NCBI RefSeq assembly: GCF_007750395.1
Contig: NZ_CP036281.1
Coordinates: 4,549,001 to 4,613,000 of the forward strand
From: Polystyrenella longa
Lineage (GTDB): Bacteria; Planctomycetota; Planctomycetia; Planctomycetales; Planctomycetaceae
Direction: 5' to 3'
Length of the DNA: 64,000 nucleotides
The notes below the pieces were generated by a model. It had not been told where the DNA came from and did not search any database. It was given only the letters and a program-made list of their open reading frames with translations. This document shows positions 35,541 to 48,885 of this stretch, one piece after another. The number at the start of each line of letters is the position of its first letter. Within the stretch, counting starts at the first letter, position 1. Position numbers and translations under genes: made by a program.

Positions 35541-35606
35541 ATGACATCGCCGGACTGCGTGGCCCTGACTTAAGATTCTAATCAATTAAAATCGTCTGAG
35601 TTTCTT

Positions 35607-37052
35607 ATGCAATACGATCCTCTTCATCCCCAAACGCCAACGCGTTTTTCATTTTCGCGCCGTCAACTCCTACGGCAAGCTTCCACTGGCTTCGGGGCCT
35701 TGGCCATGTCAGCTTTGGCACCGCAATTCGGATTGGCGGGGCAGGATGGTGCTCAAAATGGGTTATCACTACCGGCTACCCACCATCCCTCTAAAGCCAA
35801 GCATGTCATATTTCTGTATATGGATGGAGGAGTCTCTCATATTGACTCCTTCGACCCCAAACCTCAATTGGACAAAGAGCACGGTCAGCCATTCAAAATG
35901 AAAGTGCAACCGACGCAGTTCGATGACGTCGGCAAAGTATTAAAATGCCCTTGGAAGTTCAAAAATCACGGAGAGAGTGGCCTGCCGATCAGCGAGTTGT
36001 TCCCCCACATCGCCCAGCATGCAGATGAATTGTGTGTCGTCCGCTCGATGACCTCCAGCTTTTCGGAACATACGAACGCCAATTATTTTCTCCACACAGG
36101 CCATGGGTTACAGGGACGTCCTTCGATGGGCTCGTGGTTTACTTATGGGCTGGGGACTGAAAGCGAAAACTTACCCGGATTCGTTGTTCTGATGGGTGGA
36201 TTGATGCCACCGGGCGGCGTTGACTGCTTCCACAATGGATTTCTTCCGGCGGCCTATCAAGGTTCCATATTCAAAAAAGGAGAGGTGCCGGTTGCCGACC
36301 TGTTGCGTTCGGAAAAAACAGAATCGGCTCAACGACGAAAACTGAATCTGTTACGTCAACTTGACGAGAATGTCCTCGACCAGGCGGGGGAACACGACGA
36401 ACTGGAATCGGCCATTCGAAATTACGAACTCGCCTTTCGCATGCAGACAGCCGTCCCCGACCTGGTTGACCTCAGTCAGGAAACGGAATCTACTCAGAAG
36501 AACTATGGACTGGATTCCACCGACGAACACACGCGCAGTTATGGGCGACAGTGCTTGACGGCCCGGCGACTTGTCGAACAGGGAGTTCGCTTCATTGAGT
36601 TGACCTGTCCCAAGATCGGAGGGCTTGATCGCTGGGACCAGCATTCTGGCCTGAAATCGGGGCATGAGAAAAACGCGAAGGCGATCGACCAACCCGTTGC
36701 TGCGTTAATTGATGATTTGAAGGAACGGGGATTGCTGGACGAGACCCTAATCGTCTGGGCAGGGGAATTTGGGCGTACACCGATGGCTCAGGGAAGTGAT
36801 GGACGAGACCACAATCCGTTTGGATTCACCATCTGGATGGCGGGTGGCGGTGCCAAAGGGGGCACGATCTACGGTGCCACAGACGAATACGGATACTATG
36901 CTATTGAGAACAAACTGCAAATTCATGACTTACACGCCACGATGCTGCACCTGCTTGGAATGGACCACACCCGATTAACCAAGAGGTTCAGTAGCCGAGA
37001 CATGCGTTTAACCGACGTCCATGGAAAAGTTGTCCACGACATCATCAGTTAA
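35607..37052 (+). CDS. DUF1501 family protein with Tat signal
   Basis: 481 residues. The N-terminus has a twin-arginine signal, SRRQLLRQASTGFGALAMSA, from about residue 17, predicting folded export. The body is an alkaline-phosphatase/sulfatase-like fold: HVIFLYMDGGVSHIDSFDPK near residue 67, GRQCLTARRLVEQGVRFIEL, and the late WAGEFGRTPMAQGSDGRDHN. Function is not known. It follows the cytochrome/DUF1549/DUF1553 gene on the same strand and is probably co-transcribed and functionally paired. A strong terminator follows. Confidence 0.9.
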   Translation: MQYDPLHPQTPTRFSFSRRQLLRQASTGFGALAMSALAPQFGLAGQDGAQNGLSLPATHHPSKAKHVIFLYMDGGVSHIDSFDPKPQLDKEHGQPFKMKVQPTQFDDVGKVLKCPWKFKNHGESGLPISELFPHIAQHADELCVVRSMTSSFSEHTNANYFLHTGHGLQGRPSMGSWFTYGLGTESENLPGFVVLMGGLMPPGGVDCFHNGFLPAAYQGSIFKKGEVPVADLLRSEKTESAQRRKLNLLRQLDENVLDQAGEHDELESAIRNYELAFRMQTAVPDLVDLSQETESTQKNYGLDSTDEHTRSYGRQCLTARRLVEQGVRFIELTCPKIGGLDRWDQHSGLKSGHEKNAKAIDQPVAALIDDLKERGLLDETLIVWAGEFGRTPMAQGSDGRDHNPFGFTIWMAGGGAKGGTIYGATDEYGYYAIENKLQIHDLHATMLHLLGMDHTRLTKRFSSRDMRLTDVHGKVVHDIIS

Positions 37053-37211: not shown

Positions 37212-38474
37212 TTACTTCGCGACCAGCTGATTGGGTTGAGACCAGTTAATACGGGCCAGCAGAGTATCACCGCGATACCCTCCGAATGGGCGGTGTTCTC
37301 CCACAGTGACCCAGGACTGGTCAGGGCTCACATTCGTGATATTGAAATTCCCCATCAACGCGACGCCACGAGGATCATTCTTGGGATCCCCGAGCAAAGG
37401 AAGGACCACCTGCTCCGTCTCACGTTTCAAACGCATCGTTTGGGTATCGACTTGCGCCATGTAGATGGGGGCACGATAACGAATCACCTTCGCGTTCTCT
37501 TCAGCGCGACGCGTATAGACCAGATACAGGGCATCCGAATGCTCGAGCCAATGCTGTTGTGTTGTGGACATCACGAGAGGCTCGCCATCCTCCCAGCTCC
37601 ACGCTTGCTGTTCTTCCCATTGTAAACCATCATCAGAGACAGCTACGTAGCCACGTTCGTCTTCCGCGCGAATCGTGACATAGAACTTGTCCCCGTAATG
37701 AATCATGGAAGGTTCCAGCAGTCCGCGTTTGACACCATTGTGCAGAGCGTTGCCTGTTTCCACGACCGTGATATCTTCCCCATCGAACTGACATCGAATG
37801 GTCGATATCGAGCGGGCTTCATCGACAGTCGCTCCATAGGTCAAAGGTATGAGTAATTCTCCATTCTCAAGAGTGACCCGCTGTCCGCAATTGCTGGTGT
37901 AAATAAACGCCCCTCTGGGGTCTTCCCAGGTTAACTTACGTGGCGTGGACCATGCTCCCTCGGCATTACGAATAGTATAAACCGGCCAGCGATTCAATTG
38001 AGGACGAGCCAGAACCCCGTCTCGATAAAAGACGTTATGTCCCATGGCAATCGACGTGTTGGTCTGCGGATGAAATTGCGGTGTCACGTCGCATACACCA
38101 ACTTCGTGCCTGGCATCAAACGGAGTACGACCCAATCCAGAAATCAGTTCGGGATCGCTCCAGCTCTTCCCACCATCTTTGGACAGGGTCCAGTGAACCG
38201 GACCAAAGACATCGGATCCGCTGATGGACTGCAAGGTCATCAACACCTCGTCCTGTTGCCCTGTCGGGACAACACAGGCACGCGGGTGAAACCAACGGGA
38301 TTCTCCCGAGCGACCGTTGAAGAGAATTTCGGACTCGATTGATTTAATCAAACCCGAATTCTCCTTCTGCTCTGCTGTCGCCAGCTGACCGGCTGACAGT
38401 AGAGCCATAGCAGCGGCAGATTGAGCCAGAAATTCTCGACGGTTGGGAAAGGAGGAGTATTCAGTCGGATTCAT
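37212..38474 (-). CDS. Tat-exported sialidase-like (BNR-repeat) protein
   Basis: 420 residues from the ATG at 38474 (a GTG five codons upstream is open). The N-terminus has a twin-arginine signal, NRREFLAQSAAAMALLSAG. The body looks like a sialidase-type beta-propeller: WTLSKDGGKSWSDPELI is a clear Asp-box, and similar DDGLQWEEQ occurs later. A WFHPRACVVP segment may carry one of the arginines of sialidases. Whether it cleaves glycans is not shown. Planctomycetes carry many such secreted proteins. It is convergent with the DUF1501 gene. Confidence 0.78.
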   Translation of the reverse strand: MNPTEYSSFPNRREFLAQSAAAMALLSAGQLATAEQKENSGLIKSIESEILFNGRSGESRWFHPRACVVPTGQQDEVLMTLQSISGSDVFGPVHWTLSKDGGKSWSDPELISGLGRTPFDARHEVGVCDVTPQFHPQTNTSIAMGHNVFYRDGVLARPQLNRWPVYTIRNAEGAWSTPRKLTWEDPRGAFIYTSNCGQRVTLENGELLIPLTYGATVDEARSISTIRCQFDGEDITVVETGNALHNGVKRGLLEPSMIHYGDKFYVTIRAEDERGYVAVSDDGLQWEEQQAWSWEDGEPLVMSTTQQHWLEHSDALYLVYTRRAEENAKVIRYRAPIYMAQVDTQTMRLKRETEQVVLPLLGDPKNDPRGVALMGNFNITNVSPDQSWVTVGEHRPFGGYRGDTLLARINWSQPNQLVAK

Positions 38475-38602
38475 ATCACCAGTTTTCACAGAATGAAGAG
38501 TTCAAGTGAGATTAAAGAGGAGTCCTCATCCTACTCACCATGATGACCCCATGCTACTTCTCTTTTATATGGGAGAGGGGGCCCCGAATTGAGATCGACG
38601 AA

Positions 38603-45175: not shown

Positions 45176-46300
45176 CTAAATTGTCTCCGTTTTAGCTTCC
45201 TTATTGACGTTAAACTGGCAGATTACGATTCCGAGCTCATACAGGAACAACAGCGGAACCATCATCAGAATCATACTCTGAGGGTCGGAGGGAGTCATCA
45301 ACATTGATACTACCGCGATCACCAGAATCGCCATGCGTCGTTTTTCGCGATACGTTTCCACCGAGCAGATGGATAGTCTTTCCATGAACAACATCACTAC
45401 GGGTAATTGAAAACTAACCCCAAACATCACTGGCAACATGATGGCGAAACTAATCCATTCCTTCAGGAAGATCTGCGGATCGACACCCATCGATTTGTTA
45501 AAGCTCAGCAGGAAACTCAGCACAAACGGGAGTACCAGATAGAAACAGAACATCACTCCCGTAAGAAACAAACCGATACTGAAGGGTAGATAGTAATAGA
45601 CGTAACGGCGTTCGGACGGGTAGAGACCGGCGGCGACAAACAACCAGAGCTGATAAATCAGCCACGGGCTACTGAGCACCAGGCCGGCAACGATGGAGAC
45701 CTTCAAATAAATCAGGAAAGCCTCGTGGACTTCTCGCGTGACTGGCTCTGAGTTCTTCTTGATGATTTTGACCAGCGCTTTCTGCTGGCTACGAAGGGTG
45801 TACAGTTCTTTGAACAAATCCGATTTGAGAGGCAAGACAATTTCTTTATCCGATTGAACACTCGCTTTCGGAAACTGCTCCGGATCGACTTCATGCAGAG
45901 CGGGAACCAGGTCAGCCACGCGGACCTTCACTTTTAGTACATCTTCATGTTCTGGTTGCTCAGGAGCCTCTTCGGCAGAACTGTCCGGTTCTACTGATTG
46001 CTCGTCAGCCACAACCGGATCCGCCGATTCGTTCGTCGCGGTTTCTTCAGCTGGAGCGACTTGGATTTCGGGTTCCTCGTCGCCTGAATCGAATTTTTCG
46101 ACGCCGTAGTCGTTGTAATCCAACAGGGCCTCTTTGATCGGCTGTGTAATGTATTGCACCAGTTCCTGCCCGTAGAACAGGGTGACACAACAGGCCAGAA
46201 CTAATCCAATCAACCCGCGGATCAAATGGACGCGGAGGATCTCCAGATGTTCCCCAAAGGACATGGATGATTCTTCAAATAGATCTCTCGACTTGGCCAT
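45176..46300 (-). CDS. tatC: Twin-arginine translocase subunit TatC with acidic loop insertion
   Basis: TatC recognises twin-arginine signals and builds the Tat translocon with TatA. The product is 374 residues, against about 230-260 in most bacteria. The N-terminus MSFGEHLEILRVHLIRGL and first membrane span (about 29-45) are typical, as is the second half (AFLIYLKVSIVAGLVLSSPW, YQLWLFVAAGLYPSERRY, four or five further spans). Between residues 56 and 190, the first periplasmic loop is expanded by about 110 residues: a Glu/Asp/Pro-rich part (70-120) and a mixed-charge part (121-186). The cytoplasmic recognition residues (Glu20, and Glu230 in SERR) appear kept. No tatA gene is in the window. 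Confidence 0.93.
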   Translation of the reverse strand: MAKSRDLFEESSMSFGEHLEILRVHLIRGLIGLVLACCVTLFYGQELVQYITQPIKEALLDYNDYGVEKFDSGDEEPEIQVAPAEETATNESADPVVADEQSVEPDSSAEEAPEQPEHEDVLKVKVRVADLVPALHEVDPEQFPKASVQSDKEIVLPLKSDLFKELYTLRSQQKALVKIIKKNSEPVTREVHEAFLIYLKVSIVAGLVLSSPWLIYQLWLFVAAGLYPSERRYVYYYLPFSIGLFLTGVMFCFYLVLPFVLSFLLSFNKSMGVDPQIFLKEWISFAIMLPVMFGVSFQLPVVMLFMERLSICSVETYREKRRMAILVIAVVSMLMTPSDPQSMILMMVPLLFLYELGIVICQFNVNKEAKTETI

Positions 46301-46920: not shown

Positions 46921-48885
46921 TTAACTCTTCAAATCGTCGTCATCGAATTCAGGTGGTGGATCTGTTGATAATCGTTTGGCACGGTCCATGCTTCTTCCCA
47001 GGATGAAGTAGAATACGGGCGCCAAAAAGGCCAGTCCCAAACCGTAAGTGATCGGCTTTTCGAATCGCTCGGCCAGTTTGATATTTAAATAGATCCAGAT
47101 CACCATGTTTCCGATCAAGGCGATACCCACGAGTGGCAAACTGACGATCGGTACCAACTCCGAGCTAAAACTGGATACGGAAGCCAATACAATATTCATC
47201 ACAATAAACAGTGGAAACCAGACTCCAGGCATCCCGGCCGCTTTAAATTGAAGATAGTTGCGAACCCAGGGAATCAATGCAAGTATGCCGGTGTTTTTTG
47301 TCTTTTCAAAAATTCGACACAATCCATCGTAATAGAGAATTATGGGCAAGAACACGATAAAATAAACCAACAGTTCGGCAACGATAATCGTTCCGAACGG
47401 AATGCCCATCGATACGGCGCCAATCATAGTGGCGGCCACTTCGAGTCCGAAGAAGAGATGACAAAATAACCAAATTGCCCCGACTTGCGACCGAAACGGG
47501 ATCGGGAGATATTTCTTCTTATCCAAGACTTTGTAAGTCGCCCCCGGAACCTCTCTGATGAGATCCAGCGAATTCTGGCAATAATAAACCAAGTTACCCA
47601 GACAACGGGCAGAGCCGATCAAAAAGACTCCGGCAAAGCAGGCGATGGGCAGCAGAATCGCTTCCGATTTCACCCAGACCATATAGTCGACTTCATTATT
47701 GGCCTTGCTGTTTCTTAGTTCGATCAATTCATCAGGTAGGACTTCTTTGGGCCCGGGGTTTAGTCTCTGCGCCCATGTAATCCGGGCATTCATCCTCATT
47801 GGCTCCCAGACTTCATCCAAATCATCCGCAACATAGTTATAAGCAACGGCATAGCCAGCAATGGGGATGGCGGCAAACATCAACGTCAATAATCCCCAAA
47901 CAAGTGATTGACCGATGGTTCTCATCGTCAACTGCGCTAGCTTGAAAGGGTTCCAACCTGGCCAGGTTACCGGCATCGACATGTGGCCGACTGCAGATGG
48001 GATGGACAAACCAACGAGCGTCAGTGAAAAGCCGAGCAGAATTCCAATGATGGTTAAAAAGGTCTTTGACCCACTACCGGAGGCCAATAATGAAAATCCG
48101 ACCACCAAAATGAGCGGAAACAACACCAATGCGTGAACAAAGACATTACAAATCACCCACGCAAGGAATCGATATCCATTCTGAAAGACCATGAAAATAT
48201 CGAATTTCTTCGGTTTAAACGGTCTCGTTTTTTTCTTCTTCTTAAGCGCTGCGTGATACTGAAATGTATAAACGGCCATTTCTGAAGCAATTGTCCAGAA
48301 CCACCCAAAAAAGAATGCAGTACTGACACTGACAAACGCCCACATGAATATTTCAACGGTCAGTCCATCACTGAAGTGGATGAAGAAGTGAGCGATGGCA
48401 ATGAAGATATAGGCCAACATCGAAATAAGGATAGAACGGCCGATCAGGCCGAAGTTTTTAAAGGGGTATACGAAAAAGTCGTTCGCCACATTTTTGAAGA
48501 AATCACGTGGGTCTACCCCTTTAACCGCGATTAGGCGTTTGCGTTTCTCAGTCAACTGGCCCGTTTCGACATCGATACCACACGACTCACATACACCCGT
48601 TTCGGGATCAACGTCCTGTCCGCAGCGCGGGCAGATTTTCATCTGCTGATCTTCCAGAGGCAAGTTACCGAGTGCTGTCATAAAACCTGTGGATGAAGCG
48701 GCTTCACGACGTTTGCGACCTGGCGAAGACTGGCTGGGTGGTTTGGCAGATCCTTCGCTTCCAGGCTGCCGCGAGGGCACCTTGATACGATTAGCGCATT
48801 TCGGGCACTTGACGACTTTGCCCATGGCAGCGTCAGGCAATTTCAAACCAGCTTCACAAACTTTACAGCGAATTTTTATCGGCAT
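46921..48885 (-). CDS. Multi-span membrane protein with two N-terminal zinc ribbons
   Basis: 654 residues. Zinc ribbon 1 is at about 7-33 (CKVC...CPKC), zinc ribbon 2 at about 85-103 (CPRC...CESC), with a basic Pro/Ser linker between. About ten hydrophobic segments follow from residue 145. The C-terminal ~130 residues (GILALIPWVRNYLQFKAAGM, then AERFEKPITYGLGLAFLAPV and FYFILG) resemble the DUF5684 type of small membrane domain. It ends with an acidic DDDD tail. Likely an inner-membrane protein of unknown role; the zinc ribbons would face the cytoplasm. Confidence 0.72.
   Translation of the reverse strand: MPIKIRCKVCEAGLKLPDAAMGKVVKCPKCANRIKVPSRQPGSEGSAKPPSQSSPGRKRREAASSTGFMTALGNLPLEDQQMKICPRCGQDVDPETGVCESCGIDVETGQLTEKRKRLIAVKGVDPRDFFKNVANDFFVYPFKNFGLIGRSILISMLAYIFIAIAHFFIHFSDGLTVEIFMWAFVSVSTAFFFGWFWTIASEMAVYTFQYHAALKKKKKTRPFKPKKFDIFMVFQNGYRFLAWVICNVFVHALVLFPLILVVGFSLLASGSGSKTFLTIIGILLGFSLTLVGLSIPSAVGHMSMPVTWPGWNPFKLAQLTMRTIGQSLVWGLLTLMFAAIPIAGYAVAYNYVADDLDEVWEPMRMNARITWAQRLNPGPKEVLPDELIELRNSKANNEVDYMVWVKSEAILLPIACFAGVFLIGSARCLGNLVYYCQNSLDLIREVPGATYKVLDKKKYLPIPFRSQVGAIWLFCHLFFGLEVAATMIGAVSMGIPFGTIIVAELLVYFIVFLPIILYYDGLCRIFEKTKNTGILALIPWVRNYLQFKAAGMPGVWFPLFIVMNIVLASVSSFSSELVPIVSLPLVGIALIGNMVIWIYLNIKLAERFEKPITYGLGLAFLAPVFYFILGRSMDRAKRLSTDPPPEFDDDDLKS

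Follow-up and report, generated by a model that had tools for sequence, protein, structure and literature searches.

TatC of Polystyrenella longa is a known protein in a genuine variant form that extends across the class: its first periplasmic loop (P1) is 121 residues longer than that of E. coli TatC and carries an acidic linker followed by a module conserved in the family. The length of such a loop has a published precedent. Published lengths of P1 run from 14 residues (S. aureus) to 248 (Pirellula staleyi), and those of P2 from 19 to 183, the longest being that of M. xanthus (Kneuper 2012, PMC3712464). For the giant P1 of P. staleyi, also a planctomycete, that comparison of loops gives the length alone, with no module, composition or function; no title or abstract among the matches listed from the open-licence literature concerns a planctomycete P1 module or repeat domains in TatC. 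The family's conserved module and the swapping of domains in the same loop seem to be the new part. In E. coli TatC the periplasmic loops are hot spots for inactivating mutations, with a role that Kneuper 2012 (PMC3712464) calls not clear. A phylum with a module inserted at the permissive point of P1, and with repeat domains added in places, provides natural experiments on what the Tat core complex can tolerate and recruit on its periplasmic side. Coordinates refer to the window, the whole stretch of 64,000 nucleotides of P. longa DNA that was analyzed.

The tatC gene and the fold of its product

45176..46300, minus strand: tatC, 374 aa, single copy; ATG start, Pfam and NCBIfam matches
46139..46258, minus strand: TM helix 1 and beginning of P1, residues 15-54, ending at P54; P54 invariance in alignment A2, E. 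coli alignment
45737..46123, minus strand: P1 insert, residues 60-188; local alignment to E. coli TatC, loop measurement
45941..46102, minus strand: acidic linker, residues 67-120, probably disordered; composition, low identity, low pLDDT
45749..45940, minus strand: conserved module, residues 121-184; AlphaFold2, profile match, alignment A5
45179..45736, minus strand: TM2 to TM6 and C-terminus, residues 189-374, ordinary TatC; P2 loop unchanged

The Pfam TatC family PF00902 matches residues 17-349 over profile positions 1-208 (E 1.4e-60; 205.1 bits against a cut-off of 25.1), and the NCBIfam tatC equivalog model TIGR00945 scores 163 bits, above its cut-off of 132.7. This open reading frame is the only TatC match in the P. 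longa genome. An AlphaFold2 model made with 79 aligned sequences has a mean pLDDT of 83.3 and the TatC fold: it matches 4hts with Z 23.0 and rmsd 2.4 over 226 residues, and six other TatC entries with Z 18.1-22.8, comparisons that mostly reflect the TatC body and hardly probe the module. With residues mapped onto E. coli TatC from alignments, P54 (E. coli P48), F221 (F94) and E230 (E103) are invariant in the 79 sequences of alignment A2; D339, at the position of E. coli D211, is at least 90% conserved in alignment A1 and does not reach the 90% list for A2. Isoleucine occupies residue 21, which corresponds to E. coli E15; among the A1 relatives this position is V, E, A, C or I.

Site of the insert and its acidic linker

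The initial annotation put about 110 extra residues into P1, close to the excess measured here, and the insert is not in P2, whose length equals the median of the measured loci. By local alignment, with soft edges, the insert enters approximately between E. coli P54 and Q55. E. coli P1 accepts the insertion or deletion of single residues only in the stretch K51-T58 (Kneuper 2012, PMC3712464); the insert thus falls within the permissive stretch of the loop.

The division of the insert into an acidic and a mixed-charge half, noted when the sequence was first read, is real: the linker has 20 D/E and 1 K/R (net -19), and the module has 8 D/E and 12 K/R (net +4). Among 76 sequences, with the window protein included and three Gimesia-like ones left out, the linker has a median net charge of -3 and is below zero in 64, and the module likewise has a median of -3. 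The minimum for the linker (-19) and the maximum for the module (+4) both belong to the window protein, and the strong acidity is therefore its own peculiarity. The acidic half was considered as the functional module and ruled out, since it is unconserved.

The linker is probably disordered, judging from the AlphaFold2 model, where pLDDT falls below 50 at residues 79-82, 84-94 and 96-111. Its mean pairwise identity is 16.5% in 48 sequences, and its length varies from 27 to 125 residues. Such laxity suits an explanation, which we consider rather improbable, in which P1 accumulates sequence at little cost and the insert as a whole is a mostly passive ornament.

The conserved module

AlphaFold2 places a strand at residues 122-127, a helix at 128-138, a second strand at 153-158 and a second helix at 161-184, with block means of pLDDT of 76-94 over residues 121-190; the module is thus predicted to fold as beta-alpha-beta-alpha. 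Such a confident predicted structure is not what a passive ornament would lead one to expect. The sequence pattern consists of a hydrophobic strand, xxxLxxxLHxxxPxxxP, a variable-length loop and the second strand; alignment A5 contains the 25 of the 79 A2 sequences that were picked for showing it (A2 itself excludes L096, for which no start was found, and L101, which is too long). Over 48 sequences, pairs are on average 29.7% identical in the first strand-helix part and 23.5% and 24.2% in the next two parts, as compared to 65.7% in TM2-6.

A profile of 26 family relatives, built with the window protein excluded, recovers the window loop at 42.6 bits (E 3.3e-13), far above the highest score among 3,240 shuffled loops (11.7 bits), which again argues against passive accumulation of sequence. 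Known domain families offer no counterpart: the window segment has no Pfam match, five Pfam families each match one of the 25 A5 members (best 0.0091), and a PDB profile search with the module returned nothing convincing (best E 0.17).

Selection was gauged in the 35 pairs of sequences at 78 to 99.5% identity that the 79 named loci provide. Of these 35 pairs, 28 have a finite dS over the final 65 insert residues, and their omega there is 0.08-0.37, with the qualification that in Gimesia-like and some distant pairs this stretch is not the module detected by the profile and that several pairs have a dS close to saturation. The TatC body has omega of 0.01-0.26, usually below the value for the end of the insert. 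Judged by these ratios, purifying selection acts on the insert, though less strongly than on the rest of TatC, and values so well below 1 weigh against a passive insert. Random sequence in close relatives had been named at the outset as a refutation; the second half is non-random in family relatives and under purifying selection, and the acidic half is unconserved.

Distribution of the long loop and of the module

TatC is matched in 56 of 59 relatives and in 288 of 294 genomes of the phylum; the two same-genus genomes, 78% and 65% complete, have no TatC match. Loop lengths were measured in 224 of 229 fetched loci, which were picked to cover families and not at random (L096, L202, L196, L208 and L227 were dropped). 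In class Planctomycetia, all 133 measured loci have a P1 excess of 56 to 359 residues and an unchanged P2; these comprise 54 loci labelled as same family or same class, the window included, and 79 named loci whose class is assumed from similarity and titles. The insertion is thus lineage-wide, and so consistent a long P1 is another point against mere tolerance. Outside the class, with an insert defined as at least 20 extra residues and most families represented by one or two loci, 22 of 54 family labels have a P1 insert in at least one locus, seven have a P2 insert and 25 have neither.

A frameshift, a wrong start codon or a mis-assembly, the first and last of which had been named as possible explanations at the outset, would be an extraordinarily improbable origin for this architecture: it recurs in many separate genomes, the N-terminus is conserved, and there is no stop in any TatC match among the matches listed from relatives and phylum. 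This reading is already refuted by the relatives.

Over all 224 loci, 164 have a P1 insert only, seven a P2 insert only, 53 neither and none both. Mutual exclusion of P1 and P2 inserts is only suggestive, because related families share events and the loci are not independent. In six loci (L209 and L222-L226, of families f11, f42, f46, f54, f63 and f66) the insert is in P2 instead of P1, and several of these inserts have a stretch resembling DP..P..GQ.WI. P2 is longer also in L199 (f29).

The module has a much narrower reach than the long loop. Among 136 profile targets outside the training set, which left out family f4 and L190, 69 score above the 11.7 bits of the best shuffle: the window protein, which is present twice, six of nine others of its family, 59 of the 79 named loci, some seemingly near-identical to training members, and two of three from family f2. 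None of 13 targets from class families f3 and f5-f10 and none of 30 from outside the class exceed this value; nor do the Gimesia-like loci L083, L084, L088, L158 and L159, L229, and distant named loci including L120, L136 and L131 (titled Pirellulales or Pirellulaceae). Among the measured loci the long loop is class-wide and the recognizable module is not, and the idea of a class-wide or phylum-wide domain is not borne out. Against 13 distant named loops (alignment A6, 13 of the 19 distant loci listed), a profile comparison aligned the strand-helix part over 23 columns with P 2.2e-4 and a probability of only 45%, pointing to a possible distant kinship. The absence of a detectable module from Gimesia-like loci, L229 and most other families, together with the widely varying length of P1 across the phylum, speaks for the passive explanation.

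Inserts in solved TatBC complexes

The solved TatBC complexes carry inserts in different periplasmic loops, and their TatC subunits pack against each other at the periplasmic side (Deme 2026, PMC13323110). The best PDB sequence match to the window TatC is that of Nitratifractor salsuginis (9E02, 9E04, 9E06, 9E07), which has the same TatC fold and, by our alignment, a large insert in P1 as well, at about chain residues 47-160; the A1 profile alignment runs through this insert, but with low posterior values there. Unlike the window module, which is predicted to be folded, the N. salsuginis insert is disordered in the solved complexes, and it is unrelated to that of Myxococcus xanthus (Deme 2026, PMC13323110). 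TatC of M. xanthus (9E03, 9E0S) shares with the window protein a large periplasmic insert, one that is folded; the isolated domain is a homotrimer, which augments TatC-TatC contacts (Deme 2026, PMC13323110). That insert, however, is in P2 (183 residues; Kneuper 2012, PMC3712464), the loop that is unchanged in the 133 class loci. Our comparison with 9e03 gave a best stretch ending at chain residue 156.

A possible tethered cap

The preferred reading, the likeliest of those considered but still a tentative one, is that the insert forms a tethered cap over the TatC trimer and reinforces it. P1 is expanded, at a position where E. coli TatC accepts small insertions, by an acidic tether and a family-conserved module. 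In the (TatBC)3 core complex, three modules would lie over the periplasmic cap, where their two-strand units could pack or pair across protomers and strengthen TatC-TatC packing, and the tether would leave the flanking P1 helices unrestrained while each module reaches over the three-fold axis. By analogy, the planctomycete insert would do the job that the inserted P2 domain does in the solved M. xanthus complex, reached from a different loop.

The site of the insert within the E. coli permissive stretch argues for such a cap, as do the conservation of the module in the family, its predicted fold and the low omega at the end of the insert. The homotrimeric M. xanthus insert and the packing of TatC at the periplasmic side (Deme 2026, PMC13323110) point the same way, and dominant-negative changes cluster in the periplasmic cap and make TatBC complexes smaller (Cleon 2015, PMC5102672). 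P1 and P2 inserts never occur together in the 224 loci, as expected if either serves one purpose.

Other evidence pulls in the opposite direction. The disorder of the Nitratifractor insert counts against the cap and favors a passive ornament. Four inactivating P1 substitutions of E. coli TatC leave TatBC complexes at normal size (Kneuper 2012, PMC3712464), and the TatC-TatC disulphide in the cap still forms with the dominant-negative changes (Cleon 2015, PMC5102672); changes in P1 therefore need not act via TatC packing. The module is dispensable for Tat in general, since 53 phylum loci are insert-free and most tested families lack a detectable module. The exclusion of P1 by P2 inserts rests on few events, in P2 families that may be related, and the identity of the module (24-30%) is modest, between that of the linker and that of TM2-6. 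The confinement of the module mostly to the family and the contrary results in Kneuper 2012 and Cleon 2015 make the cap less likely and the ornament more so, though the cap still ranks first.

Other domains in the same loop and the case for docking

The insert could instead bind something periplasmic, using the tether as a flexible arm; the partner might be a substrate as it emerges, a chaperone, a component of the envelope or an assembly of TatA. This docking reading, which contains the idea of a docking or gating module from the initial annotation, is improbable to the same degree as the passive ornament, both ranking below the cap. Conservation of the module in the family would fit docking too, and further arguments for it come from domains that share the loop. 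In Planctomycetaceae bacterium isolate RS395 (L101:2885-4729), leucine-rich repeats are present in the P1 linker, ahead of a module that is kept at 54.9 bits; this TatC has 615 aa from the chosen start and some undetermined bases, and its AlphaFold2 model was poor (pLDDT 62.0) and was left unused. The same arrangement occurs within the window's family, in L218:680-2674 (module 33.8 bits). Leucine-rich repeats are a binding fold. In another family of the phylum, P1 of L190:1408-2670 contains PQQ/WD40-like propeller repeats, with a PQQ_2 match (E 2.7e-6) that barely passes the cut-off (27.7 against 27.6 bits). P1 of L192, L195, L198 and L204 has 208 to 214 extra residues that look helix-rich by eye.

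Which partner would dock is another matter. The initial annotation took P1 for the place where TatC contacts TatA and TatB, a claim that finds no support in E. coli photo-crosslinking, in which P1 residues 49 and 63 gave no TatB product and P2 did crosslink (cited in Kneuper 2012, PMC3712464), or in the solved complexes, where TatB lies against TMH1, TMH5 and the TMH5-6 loop (Deme 2026, PMC13323110). P1 as a TatA/TatB binding site is not favored; contact by a protruding insert is possible. The gene neighborhood also speaks against docking, in that the neighboring genes gave no clear partner candidate and the tatA/tatB-family genes, an adjacent pair about 0.69 Mb away, are unlinked to tatC. Two open reading frames within 10 kb have twin-arginine-like N-termini, as had been reported; they are listed here with the gene upstream of tatC:

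35574-37052, plus strand: DUF1501 protein, twin-arginine-like N-terminus RRQLL
37212-38501, minus strand: protein with a BNR-like match just under the cut-off, twin-arginine-like N-terminus RREFL
46921-48885, minus strand: gene upstream of tatC, weak zinc-ribbon matches, several membrane spans by eye

The initial annotation suggested that the insert may suit the many Tat substrates of planctomycetes. The twin-arginine profile TIGR01409 has nine matches in the genome; short and weak, it missed both of these proteins and is too weak to count Tat substrates. The upstream zinc-ribbon gene was matched at 20 of 80 named tatC loci, and the two genes downstream of tatC at none of the 80, within flanks of at most 4 kb, some of them shorter.

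A broader and more speculative proposal, given less credence than any of the three readings above, is that P1 gives the planctomycete Tat translocase an evolvable docking platform: a conserved module and a tether, with other domains (leucine-rich repeats, propeller-like repeats, long helical-looking segments) grafted in by different lineages, which would couple Tat export directly to periplasmic partners.

A further unusual TatC is encoded by L205:868-2646, in a 593-residue open frame with about 160 extra P1 residues, a long charged C-terminal tail and a weak DUF3108-like hint (E 0.0042).
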